NCBI GenBank assembly: GCA_031265365.1
Contig: JAISCS010000201.1
Coordinates: forward strand, 1 to 39,866
From: Verrucomicrobiales bacterium
Lineage (GTDB): Bacteria > Verrucomicrobiota > Verrucomicrobiia > Methylacidiphilales > JAAUTS01
Reading direction: 5' to 3'
DNA length: 39,866 nucleotides
In this document: positions 1,467-16,126 of the stretch, one piece after another
Layout of the letters: each line of letters opens with the position of its first letter
Position numbering within the stretch: the stretch's first letter is position 1
Translations under genes and position numbers: made by a program
The notes under the pieces: generated by a model
What the model was told of the DNA's origin: nothing
Databases searched by the model: none
What the model saw: the letters and a program-made list of their open reading frames with translations, nothing else

Positions 1467-2471
1467 TCAACCGAAAACCCGTCGGCGCAAACCGCGCATG
1501 GTGGCCAGCTCCAACCCACTGACGGTGACGGGGAGCGCGTGGGGAATGGCATGCTCGCGTCTGCCGGTGCGCTGATGATAACGCTCCAGTTGTCGGGTGA
1601 CAAACGCCTTGCCGCCCAATACCGCACCGTCCGTGAAGTATCTGACCCGACAACGCAATAATTCCGTCACTGGCAGCGAGCCTTGTTCCTTGATGACTCG
1701 TTCCACTTGCGCCGCGGTCAGCGTGACGGCGTTGGATTTGGCCTTGGCACCGGTGTTGTAAAGCATTTGTCGGTAGGATTTGTGCGCCGTGCCCCAGTCT
1801 GTTTGTTCCAGCGTGATGGCCAGCGACTGACGCAGTTTCTTGTTGCCGGCCACCGCCTCGGCGTAACCGCAGAAGCGATAATCCTTGGGGTCTGCGACCA
1901 AGCCTGCCCGCACCGGATTGAGGTCAATGTAAGCGGCCACGGCTCGCAACACCGGCCCGTTTTCCACCAACACGCTTTTGAACCGCTCCGACCAGAGGGT
2001 GCCGTAGCGTTGGTGCGCGTGGTTGAACCAAACCGAGAACCGTTGCTTGAGTAATTTCATGAACTGGGAGACATCGCCCATCAATGCGAATTGCCGTTGG
2101 CGCCAAGCGCGCATATCGTCATCCCCAGCGACCAGTTTTTTTTCCAGCACATCCAGCTTGGCGACTTGGTATTTGGTGGGTTGGGGATGGAGGAGTTTAT
2201 ATCGCCGCAGCAATTCGTTGTCACTGACAGCGACAGCTCGCGGCACTAACACCAGAATATGAAAATGATTGGAAAGAACGGCATAGGTGAGAATTTGCAC
2301 GCCGCAAAATTCAGCGATTTGCCACATTTGGCGGCGAAACATCTCGCGGGCGGTTTCATCAAACAAGCGCTCACCGTTCACCGTTCTAGAAATGCAATGA
2401 TATACCGCTAATCCCTCTTGAGGTGTTATCTTAATCCGCGACGTTCTCATACCAGAAAAATTTACAGCCAT
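1467..2471 (-). mobile_element. REP-associated tyrosine transposase (RAYT / Y1_Tnp superfamily)
   Basis: HUH motif NHFHILVLVPR and the motif AYIDLNPVRAGLV containing the likely catalytic Tyr; long C-terminal extension; intact ORF. Confidence 0.9.
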
Positions 2472-2533: not shown

Positions 2534-2577
2534 TTGACGCTATATGGGAATACTTTATTGTTGAGATTAGGTCTCAA
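2534..2577 (+). promoter_or_regulatory. Putative promoter (TTGACG-N16-TATTGT) overlapping operator-like inverted repeat TTGAGA-TTAGG-TCTCAA
   Basis: -35-like 2534-2539, -10-like 2556-2561, inverted repeat 2561-2577, directly upstream of the feoA ATG at 2585. Confidence 0.5.
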
Positions 2578-2584
2578 TATTGGC

Positions 2585-2899
2585 ATGCAAACTTTGCTCA
2601 GTTCTGTTCGTTGTGGCACCAAAGGCGTCGTCACCGCCTTGGACGACTTTTTGCCCGCTACCAAACGGTTGCGGCGACTGGGCATCCATGAGGGAATGCC
2701 GGTGGAGGTGTTGCATGGCGACGACCCGATGATGATTTTGTGCCATCGCTCGAAAATTGCCGTCAGCCGCGATAGCCTCGATGCCGTCACTATCAGTGTT
2801 AAAAAGCACTCTTGCGAGGAGTGTTATTTTCCTGCCGCGTTTTTCAACTTGTTCCGCTTCAAAACCAAACTGGATTCGGGTTCTGCCGATAAAATATAA
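2585..2899 (+). CDS. feoA: FeoA-domain protein with C-terminal CxxC (HSCEECYF) tail
   Basis: FeoA-like: RLRRLGIHEGMPVEVLHGDDPMMILCHRSKIAVSRD; followed by iron-uptake genes. Confidence 0.72.
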   Translation: MQTLLSSVRCGTKGVVTALDDFLPATKRLRRLGIHEGMPVEVLHGDDPMMILCHRSKIAVSRDSLDAVTISVKKHSCEECYFPAAFFNLFRFKTKLDSGSADKI

Positions 2900-2938
2900 A
2901 TCGTGAATCAAAACCAAAAGCAAGGACTAAAATTTTTT

Positions 2939-2969
2939 ATTATTGAGATTGACGCTCAGTCTCAATAAT
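2939..2969. promoter_or_regulatory. Operator-like inverted repeat ATTATTGAGA-N11-TCTCAATAAT upstream of porin
   Basis: Perfect 10-bp arms; shares TTGAGA/TCTCAA half sites with the box at 2561-2577. Confidence 0.5.
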
Positions 2970-3057
2970 GTAGTTTTCCATTCTTATCGCGGTCAGCGGG
3001 TGCTGGCGGTGGCAAATGGATAATCCAAAAAAACAGAAAGAAAAAAGAGAGAATAAA

Positions 3058-4245
3058 ATGAAAGAACAATGGACAAAAATTATCGGCGGCGCGCTGGGCA
3101 GCGCGTTGTTGGTTTCGACTGGCCTCGCTGACGGTGGCGCTCCGGCGCCCTCGGCGAAGGATTTGTCGAAGGCGGTCGAAAAAGTAAATTACGTCGAAAC
3201 TGATACGGCGGGCGTCAAGCTCTCCGGTTATGTGGATGTCGGTTACATTTACAATTTCATCGGCAAAGGCAGCTATGCCATGTCGCGCGGCTACAATGCG
3301 TCGGACAGCCACAGCGGCGGTGACTTCAATGTCAACGCGGTCAAATTCACGCTGGAAAAATCGCTGACGGAGAAAAACGAATGGCAGGCGGGTTTCCGCG
3401 TGGACACGTTCGTCGGCAAGGACTGGGCGGAGTTCGTGCCCGGCGCCGGCAGTGACGCGAGCACGCTGTTCCTGCAACAGGCCTACGTGGAATTCCGCGT
3501 GCCGGTGGGGAACGGGTTGGATGTGCAATTCGGCAAAATGGGTTCCATCCTCGGCTTCGAGGCGGACGAGCGGCCGGCGAATTTGAACATCACGCAAGGG
3601 CTGAACGCGACCATTGACCCCGGTCCGTCGCCCGGTGTGCTGGCGACTTACCACGTCACCGACAGCGTTGACGTCATGCTCGGTGTCAACAACGGCGGCG
3701 GCTTGGACAACAATCCGGGCTTGGACACGAGTGGCGACGGCTACGGGTTCACCGGCGGCGTGAATTTTCACCACGACAATTTTGAAACACAACTCACCGG
3801 CTGCATTGAGCCGTGGGGCAACGAGGCTTACACGAGCGACAACGTCACCGTGTACGGCGTGAATTGGTGGACGACTTGGTCGCCAAAATTCGCCGCTGAC
3901 CATCTGCTGCTGGCGTTCAACGCGTCGTATTGGTACGCGAAAAATCTCGACCCGTCGGTGACGGATTATCCGGGCAGCTTCGCCACGGCGGCGCTGTACG
4001 CGAAGTACCAGTTCACCGACTTGTTCAGCCTCGCGGGACGCGGCGAGTACGTGAACGCCAACGACGGTGAAACGAATAATTACTGGTCGTTCACGCTGAC
4101 GGCGGGCTTCAACGTCGCGGAGAATTTGCTCCTGCGCGCGGAGTACCGTTACGACACGGGCAAAGACGTGGTGTACAATTATGACACCGAAACCGGCAAC
4201 CACAGCGGGCACACAGTGGCGCTGGAGGCGGTGTACACTTTTTGA
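3058..4245 (+). CDS. Outer-membrane beta-barrel porin (OmpL/BBP2-like), iron-locus associated
   Basis: Signal peptide, GVKLSGYVDVGYIYNF start of barrel, terminal VALEAVYTF; paralogous to 12010-13356. Confidence 0.75.
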   Translation: MKEQWTKIIGGALGSALLVSTGLADGGAPAPSAKDLSKAVEKVNYVETDTAGVKLSGYVDVGYIYNFIGKGSYAMSRGYNASDSHSGGDFNVNAVKFTLEKSLTEKNEWQAGFRVDTFVGKDWAEFVPGAGSDASTLFLQQAYVEFRVPVGNGLDVQFGKMGSILGFEADERPANLNITQGLNATIDPGPSPGVLATYHVTDSVDVMLGVNNGGGLDNNPGLDTSGDGYGFTGGVNFHHDNFETQLTGCIEPWGNEAYTSDNVTVYGVNWWTTWSPKFAADHLLLAFNASYWYAKNLDPSVTDYPGSFATAALYAKYQFTDLFSLAGRGEYVNANDGETNNYWSFTLTAGFNVAENLLLRAEYRYDTGKDVVYNYDTETGNHSGHTVALEAVYTF

Positions 4246-4270
4246 TGTGTCGCGCAACAGTCGGCGGGTT

Positions 4271-4305
4271 GCGCGGGTTCTTGCCTGATTGGCGAGAACT
4301 CGCGC
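4271..4305 (+). other. Intercistronic RNA hairpin GCGCGGGTTCTTGCC-tgatt-GGCGAGAACTCGCGC
   Basis: 15-bp stem that closes completely in + strand RNA if two G.U pairs are allowed; no U-tract. Confidence 0.55.
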
Positions 4306-4342
4306 GGCCCGCGGGCTGAATTCACCAACGAAAAATAATCCT

Positions 4343-6268
4343 ATGAGGTCATGGCGCATTTCCATCTTAGCTTGGCTCATCGGCTGCGGCGCGGCTTGGG
4401 GGCAGGGGGATTATCAGGCGTTCGTGGATGAGATTAAAAACCGGCTCGACCATACGACACGGTTGTACGCTGACGGTGACTCGGCCGGGGCGCGGGAGAT
4501 GGTGCAGTCGGCGTATTTCGAGGTGTTCGAAAATTTGGAGGGGCCGATTCGTATCAATATTTCCGCGAAACAAAGTTATGCGATGGAGGCGATGTTCGGC
4601 GAAATCCGCCGGTTGATTGGCGCGGGGGTCAAGCTCGAGGTGGTGCAAGGGAAAACCGATTGGCTCAAGGCGCAGCTCGACGCGGCGCTGCCGGTGTTGC
4701 GCGACGGGCATCAGCTCCGGGCGGAGAGTCGCGACGTGACGGTGGCCGCTGACGGTGACATCATTGAGGCGTGGCGCGAGTGTCTGCGCGGCTTGGAGAA
4801 CGATTTGGCGGCGGCGGTGACGGCGTACCAGGACGGCGAGTTCAAGGCGGCGCGGTTGAAAATCGAGCGGACGTGGTTCGCCAATTTCAAAAATTCCGAG
4901 CTGGAAATCAGCGTGCGGTTGCACCGGTCGCGCGCGGCGGCGGCGGAGATTAACCAGCGTTTTTCCAGATTGTTGAAACTCGCCGCTGACGGTGACGCGG
5001 GCATCACGACGGTTGGTTATGAAATCACGCGGTTGTTGGACGACCTCGCGGAGTTGCTGCCGGGGCTGCCGGCGGCGCGTGAGGAGGTGACGGTCAGCGA
5101 CGCGGACGCCGGCGCGGCATCGTCAGCGGACTGGCGCGCGGTCGGCGCGCAACTCAACGCCGCCTTCGCCGGCGCGATTGAGCAGTATCAGCGCGGCGAC
5201 GCGAAGGGCGCGGCGGCGGCGGTGCAGGACGCTTACTTTGACCTGTTCGAGGCGTCGGGGATGGAGAGCAAAATCGGTGCGCGCGACGCGGCGTTCAAGA
5301 CGCGGCTGGAAAATTACTTCACCCGCACGGTGGCGCTGATGAAGGCGGGGCGGCCGGCGGCGGAGTTGCGCGAGCAGGCGGCGGCATTGTCAGCGGACCT
5401 CGCGGCGGCGGCGGCGCTGCTCGGCGGGCGCGGCGCGGGCGGGGCGGCGGGGATGTTCATCTACAGCCTGACCATCATTTTGCGCGAGGGCCTGGAGGCG
5501 CTGCTCATCATCGCGGCCATCGTGGCGTATTTGGTGAAGAACGGGCACACGGCCAAGCTCGCCCTGGTGCGCAACGCGGTGCTGTGGGCGCTGGCGCTGA
5601 GCGTGGCGACGGCGCTGGGGTTTCATCTGCTGTTCGTCAACGCGGGGCAATACCGCGAGGTGTTCGAGGGCGTGACGATGCTGGTCGCGGTGACGGTGCT
5701 GTTCTCGATGAGCTACTGGCTGTTGTCCAAAGTCGAGGCGCGGCGGTGGCGGGCGTATTTGGAAAAGAAAGTCTCGCTGGCGCTGACCAAGGGGTCGCTC
5801 GCCGGGCTGTGGCTGACGTGTTTCCTGGCGGTGTACCGCGAGGGCGCCGAGACGGTGCTGTTTTATTACGCGCTGGCGGGCGACGCGCGCGGCGCGGCGG
5901 ACTACGGGTACCTGGCCGCGGGCCTGGCGACGGGCGGCGCCGCGCTGGCGGCGGTGTATTTCATCATGCGGCTGACGGTGACGCGCCTGCCGCTGAAGCC
6001 GTTCTTCCTGTGCACCGGCGGCTTCATGTACGCGATGGCGCTGGTGTACGCGGGCAAGGGCGTGCGCGAGTTGATTGAGGGCAAAGTGTTCCAGCCGACC
6101 GCCGCGCCGTTCGCCCCCGAAGTTGACTGGCTGGGCCTCTACCCGTACTGGGAGACGCTCACGCCGCAACTCATCCTGATTTTGGCCGCTTTGGTAGCGC
6201 TCTGGCACTTGTGCCGCGGCGCGGCGGCCATTAAAACAAACCAGAAAATAGAAATAAAACACACATGA
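4343..6268 (+). CDS. FTR1 family iron permease with long periplasmic N-terminal domain
   Basis: Two REGxE motifs: ILREGLEALLII and YREGAETVLFYY. Confidence 0.9.
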   Translation: MRSWRISILAWLIGCGAAWGQGDYQAFVDEIKNRLDHTTRLYADGDSAGAREMVQSAYFEVFENLEGPIRINISAKQSYAMEAMFGEIRRLIGAGVKLEVVQGKTDWLKAQLDAALPVLRDGHQLRAESRDVTVAADGDIIEAWRECLRGLENDLAAAVTAYQDGEFKAARLKIERTWFANFKNSELEISVRLHRSRAAAAEINQRFSRLLKLAADGDAGITTVGYEITRLLDDLAELLPGLPAAREEVTVSDADAGAASSADWRAVGAQLNAAFAGAIEQYQRGDAKGAAAAVQDAYFDLFEASGMESKIGARDAAFKTRLENYFTRTVALMKAGRPAAELREQAAALSADLAAAAALLGGRGAGGAAGMFIYSLTIILREGLEALLIIAAIVAYLVKNGHTAKLALVRNAVLWALALSVATALGFHLLFVNAGQYREVFEGVTMLVAVTVLFSMSYWLLSKVEARRWRAYLEKKVSLALTKGSLAGLWLTCFLAVYREGAETVLFYYALAGDARGAADYGYLAAGLATGGAALAAVYFIMRLTVTRLPLKPFFLCTGGFMYAMALVYAGKGVRELIEGKVFQPTAAPFAPEVDWLGLYPYWETLTPQLILILAALVALWHLCRGAAAIKTNQKIEIKHT

Positions 6269-6786
6269 ATAAACTAATAATCGCCGCCGCGGCCGGATTG
6301 CTCGCGGCCGGCATCACCGTCAACGCCTTTGAGGAAGTCCCCATCGGCGAGGCGCAGACGGCCAACGAAATGGAAATCGCCGCCGTCTATCTGCAACCGA
6401 TTGACATGGAACCAGCCGGCATGGGCCTGTCCGCCGCGAAGTCGGACATCCACCTGGAGGCTGACATCCACGCCGTCGAGGGCAACAAAAACGGCTTCGG
6501 CGCCGGCGAATGGATACCGTACCTGACCATCAACTACACGTTGGTCAACAAGGACACGGGCAAGGAGCAAAAGGGCGCCTTCATGCCGATGGTCGCCGCC
6601 GACGGCCCCCACTACGGCGCGAACATCAAGATGCCCGGCACCGGCAACTACAAGCTCACCTACAGCATCGAGCCGCCGTCCAAGGCCGGCCTCCACCGCC
6701 ACACCGACAAGGAAACCGGCGTCGGCAAATGGTGGAAGCCGTTCGACGTGAGCTATGAGTTCAAGTACACCGGGTTGAAAAAATAG
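6265..6786 (+). CDS. Periplasmic iron-binding protein, P19/Tp34 family
   Basis: MxxxEIAAVYLQPIDMEP...DIHLEADIHAVEGNKNGFGAGEWIPYLTINY...MPMVAADGPHYGANIKMPGTGNYKL; ATGA overlap with FTR1. Confidence 0.9.
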   Translation: MNKLIIAAAAGLLAAGITVNAFEEVPIGEAQTANEMEIAAVYLQPIDMEPAGMGLSAAKSDIHLEADIHAVEGNKNGFGAGEWIPYLTINYTLVNKDTGKEQKGAFMPMVAADGPHYGANIKMPGTGNYKLTYSIEPPSKAGLHRHTDKETGVGKWWKPFDVSYEFKYTGLKK

Positions 6787-6802
6787 CCCCGCGCTGTTTT
6801 TC

Positions 6803-6878
6803 AATCCGCAGATGACGCAGATTTTCGCCGATTAACTTTTCCAAAAAAATCCGCGTCTATCTGCGTAATCTGCGGATA
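6803..6878. repeat. Intergenic palindromic element AATCCGCAGATgACGCAGAT...ATCTGCGTAATCTGCGGATT type
   Basis: About 30-nt imperfect inverted arms read from sequence. Confidence 0.8.
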
Positions 6879-6892
6879 AAAAAACGCCGACC

Positions 6893-8569
6893 ATGAGCTA
6901 CTTCTTCGCCACGATTCTCGACCTGTTCCTGCCAGTCGCATTGCTGGCCGGGGTGGACCGGGCGCGCGGCGGCGGGGCGGCGCCGTCCGCGCGGGCGACG
7001 GCGCTGACCCTCGGCGCGGCCTTCGCGGCGGGGCTGGCGCTGGCGTGGCGGTTCGACAACACCGTCGCCGCCGTGCTGTGGTGGTCGGGGCTGGGGCGGA
7101 CGCTGGCCGTGGCGGCGCTGCTGGTGACGCAAGGCACCCACGCCCGCCGCGCCGGCCTCGCGCTGGTCGCGCTGACCGTCACCGGCGCCGCCTTCACCTG
7201 GGGGCGCGACCCCAACCTGCGCCTGCTCGCGGTCACCCACGTCATGAACACCGCGCTGCTGCTCAACCTCGCCGCCATCGCCGCCGCCCTCGCGCTGCTG
7301 GCGACCCTCGCCGGCCAATGCCGGCGGCTGGTCCAACTATGCCCCGCCGCGCGCTGGCCGCTGGCGGCGACCCTCGGCGCGCTGGTGCTGCTGCCGGCGG
7401 CGGGCGACGGATTGCTCGCGGCGATGAAGCTGGATTTTTTGGAACTAACCGCCCGCCGGCTGACCCTGGTCGCGCTGGCGACGAATTTCCCGTGGGCGCG
7501 CACGGCCCTGGCGCTGGGCGCGGTGGCGGCGGCGGTGACGCTGGCGGCGTGGCGCCGCCTCCGCCCGCTCAAACAAGCCGTCGCCCGCGCCGCCGCCGCC
7601 GGTGACGCGCTGGAACGCCGGCGCCGGCTGGCGGAATGGCGCGGCGCGCGCCGCTGGACGGCGGCGTCACTGGCGGCGCTGGCGCTGGCGGCGGCGGCCG
7701 GCGGGTACTGGCACGGCATCGCCGCGCGACCGCTGGCGTTGTCCCGCGCGCAACGGGTCCAGTTGAACGCCGACGGCGAGGTGCGCCTGCCCGGCGCGCT
7801 GACGACGCTGGCCGACGGCCGGCTGCACCGCTTCGAGTGGGTCGCCGACGACGGCAAAATCGTGCGCTTCTTCGTCATCAACCGCTTCGCCGGCACCGCC
7901 AGCCCGACGGTGGTGTTCGACGCCTGCATGTTGTGCGGCGACCTCGGCTACGCGCAGGAGGACGGGCAAGTGGTGTGCATCGCGTGCGGCGTGCGGATTC
8001 ATCCGCCGAGCGTCGGCAATGCCGGGGGCTGCAACCCGATTCCGTTGAACGCGTGGGGAGTGGAGGATGGCGACATCGTCATCCCGCAGGCGGCGCTGGA
8101 TGAGGGGGCGAGGTATTTCACTACGTATGAGAAGGATGGGCGGGTGACGGGGAGCGGGGGGCCTGGGAACGCGGGGGCAAGCCAACGACTTAATTGCTTA
8201 AGCAATCGGCTTAATTGCTTAAGCAACCGGCTTGATTGCTTAAGCAACCGGCCTGATTGCTTAAGCCTGAAGCTCGCGGACTTAAGCCCGCAACAGCCCC
8301 GAACGCTGAACTACCCCGTCGCTTCGCGCCACCCCTTCACGGAAGGGGAATTAGCTCGCGCAAGGGGCATAAGCGATGAGGTTGGTCTCCGCGTTAGCGA
8401 TTCCCCTTCCGTGAAGGGGTGTCCGCGCAGCGGACGGGGTAGTTCAGCGTTAATTTGGAATTTCGATTTTGAGATTTGGGATTTATTTGGAGTTTGGAAT
8501 TTGGAATTTGGAATTTCCCCCACCAGCCCGCCCGGCGCCCAACCGCAAAAGAAAGCGCCGCCATGCTGA
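6893..8569 (+). CDS. DUF2318 membrane/Fe-S-type protein of the FTR1-P19 locus, with anomalous C-terminal tail (about 140 aa)
   Basis: VVFDACMLCGDLGYAQEDGQVVCIACGVRIHPPSVGNAGGCNPIP motif; locus order as in Campylobacter P19 system (Cj1658-1663). Confidence 0.85.
   Translation: MSYFFATILDLFLPVALLAGVDRARGGGAAPSARATALTLGAAFAAGLALAWRFDNTVAAVLWWSGLGRTLAVAALLVTQGTHARRAGLALVALTVTGAAFTWGRDPNLRLLAVTHVMNTALLLNLAAIAAALALLATLAGQCRRLVQLCPAARWPLAATLGALVLLPAAGDGLLAAMKLDFLELTARRLTLVALATNFPWARTALALGAVAAAVTLAAWRRLRPLKQAVARAAAAGDALERRRRLAEWRGARRWTAASLAALALAAAAGGYWHGIAARPLALSRAQRVQLNADGEVRLPGALTTLADGRLHRFEWVADDGKIVRFFVINRFAGTASPTVVFDACMLCGDLGYAQEDGQVVCIACGVRIHPPSVGNAGGCNPIPLNAWGVEDGDIVIPQAALDEGARYFTTYEKDGRVTGSGGPGNAGASQRLNCLSNRLNCLSNRLDCLSNRPDCLSLKLADLSPQQPRTLNYPVASRHPFTEGELARARGISDEVGLRVSDSPSVKGCPRSGRGSSALIWNFDFEIWDLFGVWNLEFGISPTSPPGAQPQKKAPPC
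8189..8267 (+). repeat. 21-bp tandem repeat CTTAATTGCTTAAGCAAYCGG (about 3.8 copies), in frame inside the DUF2318 ORF
   Basis: Units 8189-8209, 8210-8230, 8231-8251, partial 8252-8267; each contains a palindrome around TTGCTTAAGCAA. Confidence 0.9.
8302..8451. repeat. REP-like long palindrome, CCCCTTCACGGAAGGGGAAT family, inside the DUF2318 ORF
   Basis: AACGCTGAACTACCCCGTC...CACCCCTTCACGGAAGGGGAATTAG...GATTCCCCTTCCGTGAAGGGGTG...GACGGGGTAGTTCAGCGTT. Confidence 0.88.
8454..8516. repeat. Short-period element (TTTGGAATTTGGAATTTGGAATTT)
   Basis: Direct read; 8-nt period. Confidence 0.75.
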
Positions 8570-9786
8570 CCCAAATGATTTTCCACTCCTGGCACCGCAA
8601 CCCGCGCCGCACCGCGCTGACGGTAACCACCGTCTTCCTCGCCACCGCCCTCATCTCCGCCCTGCTCGCCATCACCGTCAGCGTCGGCGACCAGATGGCG
8701 CGCGAGTTGAAATCCTACGGCGCCAACATCCTGCTGGAACCCGCCGTGGACGGCGATTACCTCGACACCCAAGACTTGCCGCGCATCAAGGAAATCTTCT
8801 GGCGCCACAACATCCTCGGCTTTGCCCCCCTGCTGGCCGGCACCGTCACCGCCGACGACGGCGGCGAGGTGGCCATCCTCGGCACGTTCTTCGACCAGCC
8901 GCTGCCGGTGGAGGGCGAGGACGATTTCCACACCGGCCAAAAAATCATCGCCCCCTATTGGCGGATTGACGGCGCGTGGCCCGACGACGCGCGCCCCGAG
9001 GCGCTGGCCGGCGCGCGCCTGGCGGAGCGACGGGGCTGGCGCGTCGGGCAGACGCTGACGCTGGCCGGCGCGCGGCCCGTCGTCCTCAGCGGCATCCTGG
9101 AGAGCGGCGGCGAGGAGGACGAGTTGCTGGTCGTGCCGCTGGCGCTGGCGCAGGAGTTGCTGGGGCGGCCGGGCCGGGCGGACGCGGCGCGGGTGTCGGC
9201 GCTGACGGTGCCGGAGAACCGCCTGTCCGCCAAGGCCCGCGCCAACCGCGACGCGCTGACGGCGGAGGAGTATGACGTGTGGTATTGCACCGCCTACGTG
9301 TCGTCCATCGCGCACCAGCTTGAGGAGGCGCTGCCCGGCGCGCGCGCGCGGCCGGTGTGGCAGGTCGCGGCGTCGGAGGGCGTGATTGTCGGCAAGGTGC
9401 AACTGCTGTTGCTGGTGGCGACGCTGGCGGCGCTGCTGGCGGCGGCGATGGGCGTGGCCGCGCTGACCGCCGGCGCCATCCTGGAGCGCGCGGCGGAAAT
9501 CGCCTTGCTGAAGGCGCTGGCCGCGCGCCCGCGCCACATCGCGCTGTTGTTCCACGCGGAAGTCACCGTCAGCGCCCTGCTCGGCGGCGCGCTCGGCTGC
9601 GGCGCGGGCTGGCTGCTGGCGCGGCATTTGGGGCAAACTTTGTTCGGCGCGCCGCTGGCGATGGCGTGGATAACGGTGCCCGGCGTGCTGGCGCTGGCGG
9701 TGGCGATTGCCCTGCTCGGCGCGTGGCTGCCGGTGAGGCAAATCGCGGCGCTCGCGCCGGCGGAGGTGTTGCATGGCCGGCGCTGA
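8563..9786 (+). CDS. ABC transporter permease (FtsX/MacB type)
   Basis: N-terminal and C-terminal TM blocks with large periplasmic domain; start overlaps the DUF2318 stop. Confidence 0.85.
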   Translation: MLTQMIFHSWHRNPRRTALTVTTVFLATALISALLAITVSVGDQMARELKSYGANILLEPAVDGDYLDTQDLPRIKEIFWRHNILGFAPLLAGTVTADDGGEVAILGTFFDQPLPVEGEDDFHTGQKIIAPYWRIDGAWPDDARPEALAGARLAERRGWRVGQTLTLAGARPVVLSGILESGGEEDELLVVPLALAQELLGRPGRADAARVSALTVPENRLSAKARANRDALTAEEYDVWYCTAYVSSIAHQLEEALPGARARPVWQVAASEGVIVGKVQLLLLVATLAALLAAAMGVAALTAGAILERAAEIALLKALAARPRHIALLFHAEVTVSALLGGALGCGAGWLLARHLGQTLFGAPLAMAWITVPGVLALAVAIALLGAWLPVRQIAALAPAEVLHGRR

Positions 9787-10918
9787 CCCCATGTTCCGGC
9801 GGCTGGTGTGGCGCGCGCTGCGGTGGCGGCGCGGGCGCGCGGCGGTCGTGTTCGCGGCGCTGACGGTGGGCGCGGCGATTGTCTGCGCGCTGGCGGCGGT
9901 GTATTTCGACATCCACGCCGGCATGAGCCGCGAGCTGCGGACCTTCGGCGCGAACTTTTACCTCGGCCCCGCCGGCGCGGGCGGCGCGACGTGGGCGGAG
10001 GCGGATTTTAACCACCTCATCGCCGGCGCCCCGCCGGGCCTGGTCGTCGCCGCCAGCCCGTGCCTGCTCGGCACCGCGCAAGTCGGCGCGCGCCGCGTCG
10101 CGCTGGCCGGCGTGAGCTTCGAGGGCCTGCGCCCGCTGGCCGCGTACTGGCAGGTGCGCGGGGCGTGGGTCGCCGCTGATTTTGACGACCGCAACGCCAT
10201 GCTCGGCGCGCGCTTGGCGGAGGAACTGGAGCGCGGCGTCGGCGACGAACTCACGCTGACCAACGACTTGGCGGATGACGCGGCCAAGCCCCTCCGCGTC
10301 AAAGGCGTGGTCGAGACCGGCGACGCCAACGACCGGCGGCTCATCGTCAGCCTCGCCCTCGCGCAAGAGTGGCTCGGCCAGCCCGGCCGCCTCAGCCACG
10401 CCCTGCTGCGCGTGGACGGCCCGCCGGAGCGCGTCGCGGCGTGGGCGGCGGACGTGCGCCAGCGCTACCCCGCGCTCGACGCCAAGCCCATCCTCCGCAT
10501 CGCCGCCGCCGAGGGGTTGGTGTTGGACAAAATCAAGGGCCTGATGGGGCTGGTCGCGCTGGTCATCCTCGCGCTGGCGACGCTGTGCGTGAACACCGCC
10601 CTGACCGCCAGCGTCAGCGCGCGCGCCGTCGAGTTCGCCCTGCAACAAGCCCTCGGCGCCCGCCGCCGCGCCATCGTCGCCCAAATCCTCGCCGAGACCC
10701 TGCTCACCGCCGCCGCCGCCGCCGCCGCCGGGCTGGCGTTGGGCTGGGTGCTCGCGCAACTCATCGGCCGCGCCGTCTTCGCCGCCGCGATAACCTTCCG
10801 CGCCCCGGTGCTGCCGCTGACCGTCACCCTGGCCCTGGCGGCGGCGCTGCTCGCCGTCATCCTGCCCATCCGCCGCGCCCTGCAAACCGAGCCGGCGCGG
10901 ATTTTGAAAGGGGAATGA
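9773..10918 (+). CDS. ABC transporter permease (FtsX/MacB type)
   Basis: Same architecture as preceding gene; ends RRALQTEPARILKGE. Confidence 0.85.
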   Translation: MAGADPMFRRLVWRALRWRRGRAAVVFAALTVGAAIVCALAAVYFDIHAGMSRELRTFGANFYLGPAGAGGATWAEADFNHLIAGAPPGLVVAASPCLLGTAQVGARRVALAGVSFEGLRPLAAYWQVRGAWVAADFDDRNAMLGARLAEELERGVGDELTLTNDLADDAAKPLRVKGVVETGDANDRRLIVSLALAQEWLGQPGRLSHALLRVDGPPERVAAWAADVRQRYPALDAKPILRIAAAEGLVLDKIKGLMGLVALVILALATLCVNTALTASVSARAVEFALQQALGARRRAIVAQILAETLLTAAAAAAAGLALGWVLAQLIGRAVFAAAITFRAPVLPLTVTLALAAALLAVILPIRRALQTEPARILKGE

Positions 10919-10929
10919 AGATGAGGACG

Positions 10930-11034
10930 TTTTTTGGTTTTCTGGTTTTTTGGTTTTCTAGTTTGGCGCGATACCGCGTAACCCAAAAACCAAGAAACTA
11001 AAAAACCAGAAAACCAAAAAACCAAAAAACTAAA
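10930..11034. repeat. Intergenic inverted element GGTTTTCTGGTTTTTTGGTTTTC...GAAACTAAAAAACCAGAAAACC
   Basis: Low-complexity inverted arms around GGCGCGATACCGCGTAACCC. Confidence 0.8.
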
Positions 11035-11037
11035 CCC

Positions 11038-11688
11038 ATGAACATCATCGAAACCCACAACCTAACCAAATCCTTCGGCTCCGTCATCGCCGTCAACGAC
11101 CTCACCATCAGCGTCCGGCGCGGCGAGTTCGTCGCCTTCATGGGCGCCAGCGGCTCCGGCAAAACCACCTTGCTCAACATCCTCGCCTGCCTCGACACCT
11201 TCACCAGCGGCGAGGTGTTCATCGACGGCCACAACCTCGCCGCCCTCGACGAGGAAGGCCGCCGCGTCCTGCGCGCCAACAAAATCGGCCTGGTGTTCCA
11301 ACAATTCCACCTCATCCCCTACCTCACCGCGCTGGAAAACGTCATGCTCGCCCAACACTTCCACAGCGTCACCGACGAGCCGGCCGCGCGGCAAATCCTC
11401 GGCGACGTCGGCCTGGCCCACCGCCTGCACCACCGCCCCGGCGCCCTCTCCGGCGGCGAGCAACAGCGCGTCTGCATCGCCCGCGCCCTGGTCAACGAAC
11501 CGCCCATCCTGTTCGCCGACGAACCCACCGGCAACCTCGACGAGGAAAACGAGTGCAACATCCTGGCCTTGCTGCAAGACCTGCACCGGCGCGGCCGCAC
11601 CGTCGTCCTCGTCACCCACAACCCCGACCTCGCCGCCCGCGCCGACCGCATCATCCGCCTGCACCACGGGAAAGTTTTTGAACCATGA
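11038..11688 (+). CDS. ABC transporter ATP-binding protein (MacB/LolD type)
   Basis: Walker A GASGSGKTT, signature LSGGEQQR, Walker B ILFADEPTGNLD. Confidence 0.93.
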   Translation: MNIIETHNLTKSFGSVIAVNDLTISVRRGEFVAFMGASGSGKTTLLNILACLDTFTSGEVFIDGHNLAALDEEGRRVLRANKIGLVFQQFHLIPYLTALENVMLAQHFHSVTDEPAARQILGDVGLAHRLHHRPGALSGGEQQRVCIARALVNEPPILFADEPTGNLDEENECNILALLQDLHRRGRTVVLVTHNPDLAARADRIIRLHHGKVFEP

Positions 11689-11693
11689 ACTCC

Positions 11694-11996
11694 AGCCACG
11701 AAGACGCCAAGCCGCGAAGGTTAAAAATATTTATGCACACCTCAATCATGAAACCGCTAACCTTAATCCTAACCCTCCTCACCGCCCTGCCGCTGACCGT
11801 CACGGCGCGGGATTGCTGCGCCAATTCCCCGTCCGCAGGGGGCTGGCGGCGGAAGTCGGCGGAGAATTTCACCGTTAAAAAGCCCGCCCCCAGCGACCCG
11901 GGTATCTCCCGTAGCGGCCCAAGACACACTCAAAACGCCCGCCCTCGCCCATCAACCATCAAAAAACACTTCGCGCCTTAGCGTCTTCGTGGCCTG
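11694..11996. repeat. Inverted pair of AGCCACGAAGACGCCAAGCCGCGAAGG-type elements flanking the porin fragment
   Basis: Arms 11694-11720 and 11968-11996 (reverse complement AGGCCACGAAGACGCTAAGGCGCGAAGTG). Confidence 0.75.
11733..11981 (+). pseudogene. Truncated duplicate of the 5' end of the downstream porin gene
   Basis: MKPLTLILTLLTALPLTVTARDCC vs MKPLTLILTLLPALPLTVTAHDCC 277 bp downstream; no barrel follows. Confidence 0.6.
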
Positions 11997-12009
11997 AGTT
12001 AAAAAAATT

Positions 12010-13356
12010 ATGCACCCCGCAATCATGAAACCACTAACCCTAATCCTAACCCTCCTCCCCGCCCTGCCGCTGACCGTGACGGCGCACGATTGTTGTGAAA
12101 ATACCGCGCCACCCCCTCTCTGCGAGAGGGGAATTAGCTCGCACAGGAGCAGTGTCCATGCGGATTGCCCCAGCGTCAGCAATTCCCTGGGAACGCGGGG
12201 CTCCCGCCCCGACTGCTGCGCCCTCGACCACGTGCCGTCCCCCGTCGCCACCGCCCCCGCCGGCGTCAAACTCAGCGGCTACGCCGACCTCGCCTACCTC
12301 TACAACCTCGGCACCCCCTCGGCGGCGCAAGGTTACGCCACCGACCGCCGCCCGCGCGGCAACTTCAACGTCAACCAACTCCAACTCGCCCTCGCCAAGC
12401 CGCTGACCGACGCAAACCAATGGCAAGCCGGCTTCGCCGCCGCCGTCCTGCTCGGCGAGGACTTCGCCGCCATGAGCGGGCGCGACCGCGGCGCCAGCTC
12501 GCTCTACCTCCAGCACGCGCACCTTGACCTCCGCGTCCCCCTCGGCCGCGGCCTCGACGTGCAACTCGGCAAACTCTGCTCCGTCATGGGCTACGAAAGC
12601 GACGAGCGCCCCGCCAACCTCAACATCACCAAAGGCGCCAGCACGCTGTTCGACCCGTGCTCCGCCACCGGCGCGTTCCTCAGCTACCCCGTCACCGACT
12701 GGCTGACCGCGCAAGCCGGCGTCCACAACGGCAGCGGCGCCGACGGCAACCCCGGCTTCGACACCAGCGGCGACGCCTACGCCTTCCTCGCCAGCCTGCG
12801 CCTGCACAACCGCGCCCACACCCTCGCCACGCAACTCACCGTCCAATACGCCCCCTGGGGCGAGGCATGCCCACACCACGCCAACCACGCCAGCGCCATG
12901 TGCGCCCCCGACAACACCAACGTCATCGGCCTCAACTGGTGGCTCAACTGGCTCCCCGCCCGCGCCGACAGCAAACTCCTGCTGGCGCTCAACACCTCGC
13001 TATGGAGCTGGGACAACACCATGGTCATGCCCATGCCGATGCCCGCGACCACCGCCACCTACAGCGCCCTCGCCGCCTACGCCAAATACCAATGCACCCC
13101 ATGCCTCAGCCTCGCCGCCCGCGCCGAATACGTCCACACCCACAACGGCGAATACAACGCGGCGCGCGGCACCTCCTACTTCTGGAACAATGGCCGGCGC
13201 GACGACGACCTCTACACCCTGACCCTGACCGCCGCCCTCAACCTGGCGGAAGACCTACTCCTCCGCACCGAATACCGCCTAGACACCGGCGCCCGCGTCG
13301 CCACCACCCAAGACCTCGCCCACCTGCTAGCCCTCGAGGCGGTGTACAGTTTTTGA
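12010..13356 (+). CDS. Outer-membrane beta-barrel porin, paralog of 3058-4245, with REP-like in-frame insertion near N-terminus
   Basis: GVKLSGYADLAYLYNL, FNVNQLQLALAKPLTDANQWQAGF, YESDERPANLNITKG, LALEAVYSF shared with first porin. Confidence 0.75.
   Translation: MHPAIMKPLTLILTLLPALPLTVTAHDCCENTAPPPLCERGISSHRSSVHADCPSVSNSLGTRGSRPDCCALDHVPSPVATAPAGVKLSGYADLAYLYNLGTPSAAQGYATDRRPRGNFNVNQLQLALAKPLTDANQWQAGFAAAVLLGEDFAAMSGRDRGASSLYLQHAHLDLRVPLGRGLDVQLGKLCSVMGYESDERPANLNITKGASTLFDPCSATGAFLSYPVTDWLTAQAGVHNGSGADGNPGFDTSGDAYAFLASLRLHNRAHTLATQLTVQYAPWGEACPHHANHASAMCAPDNTNVIGLNWWLNWLPARADSKLLLALNTSLWSWDNTMVMPMPMPATTATYSALAAYAKYQCTPCLSLAARAEYVHTHNGEYNAARGTSYFWNNGRRDDDLYTLTLTAALNLAEDLLLRTEYRLDTGARVATTQDLAHLLALEAVYSF
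12108..12210. repeat. Degenerate REP-like element inside the porin ORF
   Basis: GCCACCCCCTCTCTGCGAGAGGGGAATTAGCTCGC...CAGCGTCAGCAATTCCCTGGGAACGCGGGGCTCCCGCCCC; resembles 8302-8451 and 13384-13537. Confidence 0.7.
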
Positions 13357-13383
13357 GTCAGACGTTCGCCGGAATAAACCCTA

Positions 13384-13537
13384 AACGCTGAAACACCCCG
13401 TCGGCTCGCGCCGCCACCCCTCTTCGAGAGGGGAATTAACGCTTACAGGGAACAGGGTCGATGAGGTTTGTTTCGGCGTAAGCAATTCCCCTCTCGAAGA
13501 GGGGTGGCGGCGCGAGCCGACGGGGTGTTTTAGCGTT
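13384..13537. repeat. REP-like long palindrome (CACCCCTCTTCGAGAGGGGAATTA variant)
   Basis: AACGCTGAAACACCCCGTCGGCTCGCGCCGCCACCCC...GGGGTGGCGGCGCGAGCCGACGGGGTGTTTTAGCGTT. Confidence 0.9.
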
Positions 13538-13571
13538 ATAGATAACAATTCCTCATAACATAGGCCGACCC

Positions 13572-13616
13572 GTCATCCTGGGCGCAGCGCCGCAGGTGCG
13601 TAGTCGAAGGAGCGGT
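13572..13616. repeat. GTCATCCTGAGCG...GTCGAAGGAGCGG family element (half copy)
   Basis: CGTCATCCTGGGCGCAGCGCCGCAGGTGCGTAGTCGAAGGAGCGG. Confidence 0.7.
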
Positions 13617-13706
13617 TGGGGCAAGGTCAGCGGATTAGTCGCTCGCCCCAAGCCATGGTGAAAAAAATGGACAGGAAATTAAAAAAACCTAGTTTGAGAC
13701 TAAATC

Positions 13707-13934
13707 ATGAAACACCTCAACGAACTCGCCATCGGCGACCGGGCCGGGATTATCGCCGTCAACGCCGGCGGTGGCCGCGCGCCGCGCTTGCTGGCGTTGG
13801 GCCTGTTGCCGGGCGTGACGGTGGAAGTCGCCGGCGTCGCGCCCTTCGGCGACCCGCTGACGGTGAAGGTGCGCGGGCGCCCCGTGAGCTTGCGGCGCGC
13901 GGATGCGGCGTTGGTGACGGTGGAACAATTATGA
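13707..13934 (+). CDS. feoA: FeoA
   Basis: LNELAIGDRAGIIAVNAGGGRAPRLLALGLLPGVTVEVAGVAPFGDPLTVKVRGRPVSLRRADA; ATGA overlap with feoB; TTGAGACTAAA just upstream. Confidence 0.85.
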   Translation: MKHLNELAIGDRAGIIAVNAGGGRAPRLLALGLLPGVTVEVAGVAPFGDPLTVKVRGRPVSLRRADAALVTVEQL

Positions 13935-16126
13935 CGCCCCACCCGCTTATCGCCATCATCGGCAACCCGAACACCGGCAAGTCCACCATCTTTAACAAGC
14001 TCACCGGCAGCCGGCAGCGCGTCGGTAATTATCCGGGCGTCACGGTCGAGAAGAAAACCGGCCGCCTCACCATCGGCGGGCGCGCGGCGGTGTTGTTCGA
14101 TTTGCCCGGCGCTTACAGCCTCGCCGCCGCGTCGCCGGACGAGCGCGTCGCCGTGGATGTGTTGACGGGACATTCCGATTGCCCGCGGCCCGACCTCGTG
14201 ATTTGCGTCGCCGACGCCGCCAATCTGCAACGCAACCTCTTCCTCGCCATGCAAATCGCCGACTTCGGCCTGCCGATGGTGCTGGCGCTGAACATGACCG
14301 ACGAGGCGGCGAAGCTCGGCATCACTGTCAGCGCTGAAAAACTTTCCGCCAAACTCGGCCTCCCCGTCGTGCCGATGGTCGCGGTGAAAGGCCGGGGCCT
14401 CGACGAACTCAAGGCCGCCATCGCCGTCGCGCTGGAGCAACCGGCGCCGCCGCTGACGATGGCGTGGCCGCCCGCCGTGGACGAGGCGCTGGGGATAATT
14501 GAACATGGATTATCGAATATTGATAATTTGGAAAAAACCGCCGACGCCGCGGGCCAAACAACTAATCCATCATCAATAATCCATCATCAATTAACCCGCC
14601 CCGAACTGCGCCGCGTGTTATTCGACGCCGATTCCGCGCTGCCCGACCGCGCCGGCGTCCGCAAAGACCGCCTCGCCCCGCTGCTGGTGACGGCGCGTGA
14701 ACGTTTGTTCCAAGCCGGCATGAATCCGCTGGCGGCGGAGGCGCTCATCGTATACCAACACCTCGGCGCGTTGCTCGCTGATGTTGAAACACACACCGCC
14801 ACGGGCCGCGCGCCATTTTCCGATCAGCTCGACCGCGTGCTCACCCACCGCGTCTGGGGCCTCGTGATTTTCCTCGGCGTGATGTGCGTCGTCTTCCAAT
14901 CCATTTACGCGTGGGCGGCGCCGCTGATGGACGCGATTGAACGCCTGGTCGGCGCCGTGCAGGAACCGGTCGGCGCGTGGCTGGCCGGCTCGCCCGCGTT
15001 GCAAAGTTTGCTCACGGACGGGGTCATCGCCGGCGTCGGCAGCGTGCTCGTGTTTTTGCCGCAAATCCTCATTTTGTTTTTCTTCATCGCGCTGCTGGAG
15101 GACTCCGGATACATGGCGCGCGCGGCGTTCTTGATGGACAAGCTCTTCAGCTGGTGCGGGCTGAACGGCAAGAGCTTCGTGCCCATGCTCAGCGGCTTCG
15201 CGTGCGGCATCCCGGCGGTGCTGGCCGCGCGCACCATCGAGGACCCCAAGTCGCGGCTGGCCACCATCCTCATCGCGCCGCTGATGAGCTGCTCCGCGCG
15301 GCTGCCGGTGTACGTCATCATGATTGGCGCGTTCATCGAGCCGGTGTACGGCGCGCGCTGGGCCGGCTTCGCGCTGTTCGCCATGCACCTGCTGGGGCTG
15401 GCGCTGGCGCTGCCGCTGGCGTGGCTGTTCACCAGGTTTTTGCTGCGCGGCCAGTCGCAGCCGTTCCTGCTGGAGCTGCCGCCGTACCGTTGGCCCGCGC
15501 CGCTGAACGTGCTGTGGCGCATGTGGGAGCGCGGCGGGCAATTTGTCAAGCGCGCCGGCACCATCATCTTCGCCGTGTCCATCATCATCTGGGCGCTGTG
15601 TTATTTCCCGCGACCCGCCGAGGTTGAGGAACAGGCGCGCGGCCAATTTCACGTCGCCGCCGACCCCGGCCTGCAACACGCCATTGACAGCGCGTATCTT
15701 GAGCAAAGCTACCTCGGTCGCGCCGGCAAATTCATCCAGCCGGTGTTCGCCCCCGCCGGCTTTGATTGGAAAATCACCGTCGGCGTGCTGGCCAGCTTCC
15801 CCGCGCGCGAAGTCATCGTCAGCACGCTGGGCATCATCTATAATCTCGGCGCTGACGTTGACGAGGAAAGCGAGCCGCTGCGCGAAAAAATGGCGACGGA
15901 ACAATGGACCACCGGCGCGCTGGCGGGCACGCCGGTGTTTAACGTCCCCGTGGCGCTGGCGGTGATGGTCTTCTTCGCCCTGTGCCTGCAATGCGGCGCG
16001 GCGGTGGCCGTCATCATCCGCGAGGTCGGCTTGAAATGGGGCGTGTTCAGTTTCTGTTACCTGACCGCGCTGGCGTGGGCGGGCGCGGTGCTGTGCTACC
16101 AAATCGGCATGAGGATTTTCGCATGA
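13931..16126 (+). CDS. feoB: Ferrous iron transporter FeoB
   Basis: GNPNTGKSTIFNKLTG, VGNYPGVTVEKK, LPGAYSL, multiple Gate-domain TMs. Confidence 0.95.
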   Translation: MTPHPLIAIIGNPNTGKSTIFNKLTGSRQRVGNYPGVTVEKKTGRLTIGGRAAVLFDLPGAYSLAAASPDERVAVDVLTGHSDCPRPDLVICVADAANLQRNLFLAMQIADFGLPMVLALNMTDEAAKLGITVSAEKLSAKLGLPVVPMVAVKGRGLDELKAAIAVALEQPAPPLTMAWPPAVDEALGIIEHGLSNIDNLEKTADAAGQTTNPSSIIHHQLTRPELRRVLFDADSALPDRAGVRKDRLAPLLVTARERLFQAGMNPLAAEALIVYQHLGALLADVETHTATGRAPFSDQLDRVLTHRVWGLVIFLGVMCVVFQSIYAWAAPLMDAIERLVGAVQEPVGAWLAGSPALQSLLTDGVIAGVGSVLVFLPQILILFFFIALLEDSGYMARAAFLMDKLFSWCGLNGKSFVPMLSGFACGIPAVLAARTIEDPKSRLATILIAPLMSCSARLPVYVIMIGAFIEPVYGARWAGFALFAMHLLGLALALPLAWLFTRFLLRGQSQPFLLELPPYRWPAPLNVLWRMWERGGQFVKRAGTIIFAVSIIIWALCYFPRPAEVEEQARGQFHVAADPGLQHAIDSAYLEQSYLGRAGKFIQPVFAPAGFDWKITVGVLASFPAREVIVSTLGIIYNLGADVDEESEPLREKMATEQWTTGALAGTPVFNVPVALAVMVFFALCLQCGAAVAVIIREVGLKWGVFSFCYLTALAWAGAVLCYQIGMRIFA
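14494..14594. repeat. Palindromic element GATAATTGAACATGGATTATCGAATATTGATAATTT...AACTAATCCATCATCAATAATCCATCATCAATTAA inside feoB
   Basis: Inverted arms of about 33 nt, imperfect, AT-rich against a GC-rich gene. Confidence 0.7.

Follow-up and report, generated by a model that had tools for sequence, protein, structure and literature searches.

The window, the whole 39,866-nucleotide stretch of DNA that we analysed from a Verrucomicrobiales bacterium, contains an iron-uptake cluster at positions 2534-16126. The cluster includes two BBP2-family porin genes and FeoB, together with a FeoA-like protein recognised by eye, an Ftr1/EfeU-like permease, an FtrD-like protein, two FtsX-like permeases and an ABC ATPase. 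A possible P19/Tp34-like protein was also noted by eye, for which NCBIfam gave no match. The ORF of the FtrD-like membrane protein (6893-8569) continues past its domain through a short tandem repeat (SNRLNCL...), a palindromic element and an AATTTGG-type repeat, which gives the impression of a lost stop codon. The second porin of the cluster and its ortholog are unusually rich in cysteine.

This second porin is encoded on the plus strand at 12010..13356 by an ORF of 448 codons with possible starts at 12010 and 12025 and without a single stop or frameshift. A Pfam search assigned residues 86-430 to BBP2 (PF07642, 6e-37). The signal peptide MKPLTLILTLLPALPLTVTA and the first mature residue occupy 12025..12087, the cleavage site being judged by eye, and an alignment of 12 porins places the conserved barrel, from GVKLSGYAD to the C-terminal phenylalanine, at 12262..13353. 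Between the signal peptide and the start of the barrel, GVKLSGYADLAYLYN, the translated ORF reads HDCCENTAPPPLCERGISSHRSSVHADCPSVSNSLGTRGSRPDCCALDHVPSPVATAPA, and the residues encoded by an insert in this region include GISSHR and SSVHADCPSVSNSLGTR.

It had been predicted from the sequence that repeat DNA lies in frame in this porin ORF. We found that the segment is present and open, repeat DNA of about 108 bp lying after the signal peptide and before the barrel. Using bases 12080-12240 as a DNA query against the bacterium's own genome (2.76 Mb in 213 contigs, 78% complete) we obtained 51 further matches with E values from 8e-16 to 7e-4, so the repeat in the porin is not a chance resemblance. 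The matches form two sets, most of them covering bases 12104-12187 and a separate set covering 12185-12219 only. This indicates that the insert is made of two fused pieces. The first (12104..12187) is a fragment of a palindromic family, A, consisting of the inner hairpin CTCTCTGCGAGAGGGG and the loop with the outer arms missing, and is 84% identical to a hand-made family consensus over its best 76 bases. The second (12185..12211) is a half-unit of an unrelated REP family, B, with the sequence CCCTGGGAACGCGGGGCTCCCGCCCCG, and is identical at 27 of 27 bases to other B units of the genome. The original prediction had set the limits at 12108-12210 and called the segment a degenerate copy of the elements at 8302-8451 and 13384-13537. 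It had captured the repeat part and the right family, of which the insert carries a fragment, but the true limits are 12104 and 12211 and the fragment is fused to half a REP unit.

Family A consists of palindromic elements of about 150 bp whose ends read AACGCTGAAACACCCCGTC (or ..GAACTACCCC..) and whose interior holds a hairpin, CCCCTCTWCGAGAGGGG (or CCCCTTCCGTGAAGGGG), and a loop of about 60 bases. Two full-length copies were recognised on the plus strand of the window. One lies just 3' of the porin gene (13384..13537); the other is of the CCCCTTCCGTGAAGGGG subtype and is the element read through by the FtrD-like ORF (8302..8451). The end motif occurs 809 times in the genome and the reversed control pattern 0 times. 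A full copy folds as one hairpin at -82 kcal/mol (z = -20), and among 17 copies we counted nine pairs with pairing-preserving changes on both sides, mostly reflecting exchange between two subtypes. Terminal inverted repeats, as expected of MITEs, are present; a non-systematic look by eye at the flanks of copies revealed no consistent target-site duplication. Throughout the genome A ends often occur as divergent pairs with 18 bp of similar sequence between them (e.g. C1:5644-5699), and what is actually repeated may extend beyond the 150-bp palindrome. No Rfam family matched the window at gathering score, the A end motif was not found in viral contigs, and the genome of a sister species in the same genus, G004, gave no A match by DNA at E 0.001.

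Repeat B (CCCTGGGAACGCGGGGCTCCCGCCCCGC) is represented by 13 units in the genome, often arranged as inverted pairs. Read directly, a unit is CCCTGGGAAC followed by the hairpin GCGGGGC-TCCC-GCCCCGC. Four units surround a Y1 transposase gene on contig C14, lying on both sides of it, and its product is a predicted RAYT-type transposase that matches NCBIfam NF047646 (REP_Tyr_transpos) at 4e-20, below the model's cut-off. The ends of this gene (L091:1087-1845) overlap B repeats, and a B unit supplies its final codons (RGGSPAFPGR). On contigs C40, C84 and C167 inverted B pairs adjoin or sit between A sequences; thus A and B meet outside the porin too. Flanking sequence of up to 1.5 kb, retrieved for seven Y1 transposase genes, contained no A copies, the exception being a 74-codon Y1 fragment on C147 with an A copy about 0.7 kb away. 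The window itself encodes a RAYT-like Y1 transposase of 334 residues (1467-2471, minus strand) with no A or B repeats near it, and the genome has several paralogs of comparable length that also lack such repeats nearby.

The paralogous porin at 3058-4245 had been cited as lacking the insert, and it does, but the two porins share only about 45% identity. More can be learned from the syntenic ortholog in G004, which at 66% identity is the nearest relative of the porin. At both loci the upstream genes encode an FtsX-like permease and an ABC ATPase, and FeoB lies downstream. In the ortholog the signal peptide carries ALPLMLTA at the same place and is followed by APNDGLERAVAQVDRVATSAIKLSGYAD, with no repeat. 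The insert is also missing from the ten other porins in the alignment of 12, all from the genus and family, and the proposed check against porin orthologs thus supports an insertion. A scan of genome contigs with the porin found no relative.

The insert is bracketed by an imperfect 12-bp direct repeat, which we recognised by sequence comparison. Its left half, GATTGTTGTGAA (Asp-Cys-Cys-Glu), lies at 12088..12099 and its right half, GACTGCTGCGCC (Asp-Cys-Cys-Ala), at 12211..12222, 123 nt (41 codons) further on; the halves agree at 7 of 12 bases and stand in the same reading phase. With one DCC removed, 24 residues separate the signal peptide from KLSG, compared with 25 in the ortholog. This suggests that the insertion event may have duplicated a DCC target; the imperfect repeat could also be unrelated to the insertion. 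Upstream, at 11719..11831 on the plus strand, lies a partial tandem copy of the porin 5' end (leader, signal peptide and DCCA) that is 86% identical and without the insert. This copy reads RDCCA before it passes into an A-like arm, a weak A-family match at 11820..11876. Since the 5'-end copy also meets an A-like arm, the spot has undergone repeated rearrangement around A elements.

In-frame residence in proteins is a habit of family A only in part. On both strands phase 0 of the A consensus is free of stops, and phase 0 is the phase read in the porin. Among 35 two-ended elements 46% (plus) and 40% (minus) are open in phase 0, compared with 21% per frame in shuffled sequence. The lengths of these elements leave remainders of 0, 1 and 2 on division by three in 13, 8 and 14 cases, a spread over all residues that is expected of DNA mostly outside genes. 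A frame bias of the repeat family, which a survey of overlapping ORFs was to have exposed, is therefore not obvious by copy length. We inspected 68 A-family stretches in this genome, a few of them short hairpin-only matches, and found that the porin is the only internal case between conserved parts of a protein. The others are intergenic, upstream of starts, or N- or C-terminal extensions by read-through. Further internal insertions were considered on C84, C113, C130, C176, C203, C74, C49 and in the sister genomes G002/G003 and rejected; any Pfam domains detected were confined to one side of the copy, so the long frames through these copies represent upstream or terminal read-through. The idea of one conserved insertion shared by the prepilin-like frames (C84, G002 C202, G003 C114) was dropped because their downstream proteins differ. 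These very long frames of about 1600 codons with a prepilin-like start (L160, L161 and L162, respectively) are open through upstream A elements, and no obvious start codon separates the A element from the prepilin motif.

Another internal case comes from G002 and G003, Verrucomicrobiales MAGs of the same genus (Gx481_bin192, Gx485_bin111). The gene encodes a DMSP-lyase-like cupin (PF16867, 2e-25) on the minus strand, at L176:1450-2367 in G002 and at L103:916-1845 in G003; L196:2599-3516 and L197:2587-3516 are the same gene. Tandem A elements lie in frame near the N-terminus, between MSAQVxDLLQQLRALWVARAA and EAATALARWPLT, and the ATG, with GGAGG upstream, precedes them. The two inserts, of 115 and 119 residues, are unlike in structure and both keep the frame. 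Joining the flanks of the insert extended the alignment with PDB 5cu1, a DMSP lyase, as far as the N-terminus. A scan of genome contigs with the protein returned the two sister genomes and one Oxalobacter MAG, and neither the Oxalobacter homolog nor the 5cu1 homolog has such an insert. Between G002 and G003 the shared A copy gave pN 0.05 and pS 0.12 (54 codons) and the C-terminal domain 0.03 and 0.15, numbers that are too small to separate neutral from selected change. AlphaFold2 models, each made with few sequences as input, were too poor for use for this protein (mean pLDDT 30) and for the porin (mean pLDDT 31).

We consider it likely that the porin acquired a near-neutral, in-frame insertion of A and B in a tolerant periplasmic tail. 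A high-copy, non-autonomous element A and a REP unit B, presumably mobilised as single-stranded DNA by Y1 transposases, would have left fragments in the gene, and the landing site would have been the short periplasmic tail from the signal peptide to the first barrel strand. A would be read in its own open phase, and the net gain in length is divisible by three, the Asp-Cys-Cys codons standing 123 nt apart, so that export and folding would be expected to persist. The predicted protein would then carry about 41 extra residues near its mature N-terminus while still being exported and folding, and the insert would persist through the tolerance of the tail rather than through a job of its own.

The codon-position G+C of the insert, 0.54/0.70/0.73, differs from the 0.66/0.50/0.91 of the barrel and counts against this reading. 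An intact frame alone does not prove selection, since chance would make about 1/7 of random insertions both open and in frame (0.42 open by shuffling x 1/3). The porin might instead be a pseudogene in the making, inactivated by a recent composite insertion that left the frame intact by chance. We regard this as unlikely, though it is the alternative that survives best. The unmutated B part would fit a recent event, and the 5' end of the gene has been rearranged, as the partial tandem copy attests. The intact barrel tells against inactivation. Of 80 columns that do not vary among the 11 other porins, 73 are unchanged here, the C-terminal phenylalanine being one of them; the seven altered columns could be counted as early decay, but most of the alterations are conservative. 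The 448-codon frame has remained clear of stops and frameshifts, and where the signal peptide and its upstream copy differ, 5 of the 8 codons are changed silently. The main reading is also favoured by dN 0.26 and dS 1.00 over 377 codons aligned with the G004 ortholog, a sign of long-term purifying selection acting on the barrel, although these values would mostly reflect the period that preceded the insertion.

Near-neutral insertion also seems to us a much better account than use of the new tail. The first 85 residues of the porin contain six cysteines vs none or one in each of the eleven other porins. From this cysteine count it is possible that a Cys-rich periplasmic tail, with its duplicated Asp-Cys-Cys, binds metal or forms disulfides in the iron-uptake cluster, although we give this only a slim chance. 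If true, it would be a protein innovation from two mobile repeats.

Two other readings would remove the insert from the protein or from the genome. Translation could start downstream, for instance at an in-frame GTG at 12232 just after the insert, which would make the insert 5' untranslated sequence; many N-terminal REPs are annotation artefacts of the start site, as Di Nocera et al. 2013 (PMC3733652) caution. However, the porin would then lose its signal peptide, and the frame before the insert encodes a good one, like the ALPLMLTA of the ortholog, so we judge a downstream start very improbable. Still less credible is a misassembly at a high-copy repeat, conceivable in an assembly so fragmented and with hundreds of A copies, which we rejected because the ABC transporter genes upstream and the porin and FeoB downstream are arranged as in G004 and because a near-duplicate of the signal-peptide side lies 279 bp upstream within this contig.

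In-frame insertion of palindromic repeats is best known from Rickettsia conorii, where Rickettsia palindromic elements (RPEs) of about 150 bp lie in frame inside genes and nearly half are in ORFs (review PMC10969869); we compared our data with the RPE work of Ogata et al. 2000 and 2002 via the reviews PMC10969869 and PMC3733652. The parallel with RPEs drawn in the original prediction holds for the event and not for the family. Like RPEs, A is a palindromic repeat of about 100-150 bp in many copies with a stop-free phase, and it lies in frame in conserved proteins, the porin and the DMSP-lyase-like protein, whose homologs are free of it. In contrast to RPEs, only 1 of the 68 A stretches here is internal, the phylum is another one, and the porin insert fuses two repeat families; A is set beside RPEs by description and not by sequence.

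A comparable case is that of Opitutus terrae, a verrucomicrobium. Intragenic GTAG- and CGTC-tagged REPs occur in many species, and among the genomes studied O. terrae has the most intragenic GTAG repeats (Di Nocera et al. 2013, PMC3733652). There too, REP units and dimers lie in frame inside genes of a member of the Verrucomicrobiota. A differs from them in its length of about 150 bp, its long arms and its loop of about 60 bases. In A and B alike the GTAG tag is missing from its expected place, a B unit read directly having no unpaired GTAG or CGTC tag at the hairpin end, and the porin insert joins two families. With REP/REPIN systems B shares the inverted pairs and the position on both sides of a RAYT-type gene; it differs in being rare here, and its porin copy is a single half-unit fused to A. 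Within the flanks retrieved for the seven Y1 transposase genes, copies of A do not flank a RAYT gene.

This kind of event is thus already known, even in the phylum Verrucomicrobiota. As far as we have searched, what is new is the A family itself, the joining of two kinds of repeat in one insert, and the identity of both host genes. The porin provides an ortholog-controlled example, outside the Rickettsiales, of palindromic repeat DNA becoming protein sequence, at an N-terminal periplasmic tail where tolerance makes sense. With its porin case and the independent DMSP-lyase-like case in two sister species, this genus could help to estimate what share of in-frame repeat insertions is merely tolerated and what share is retained.
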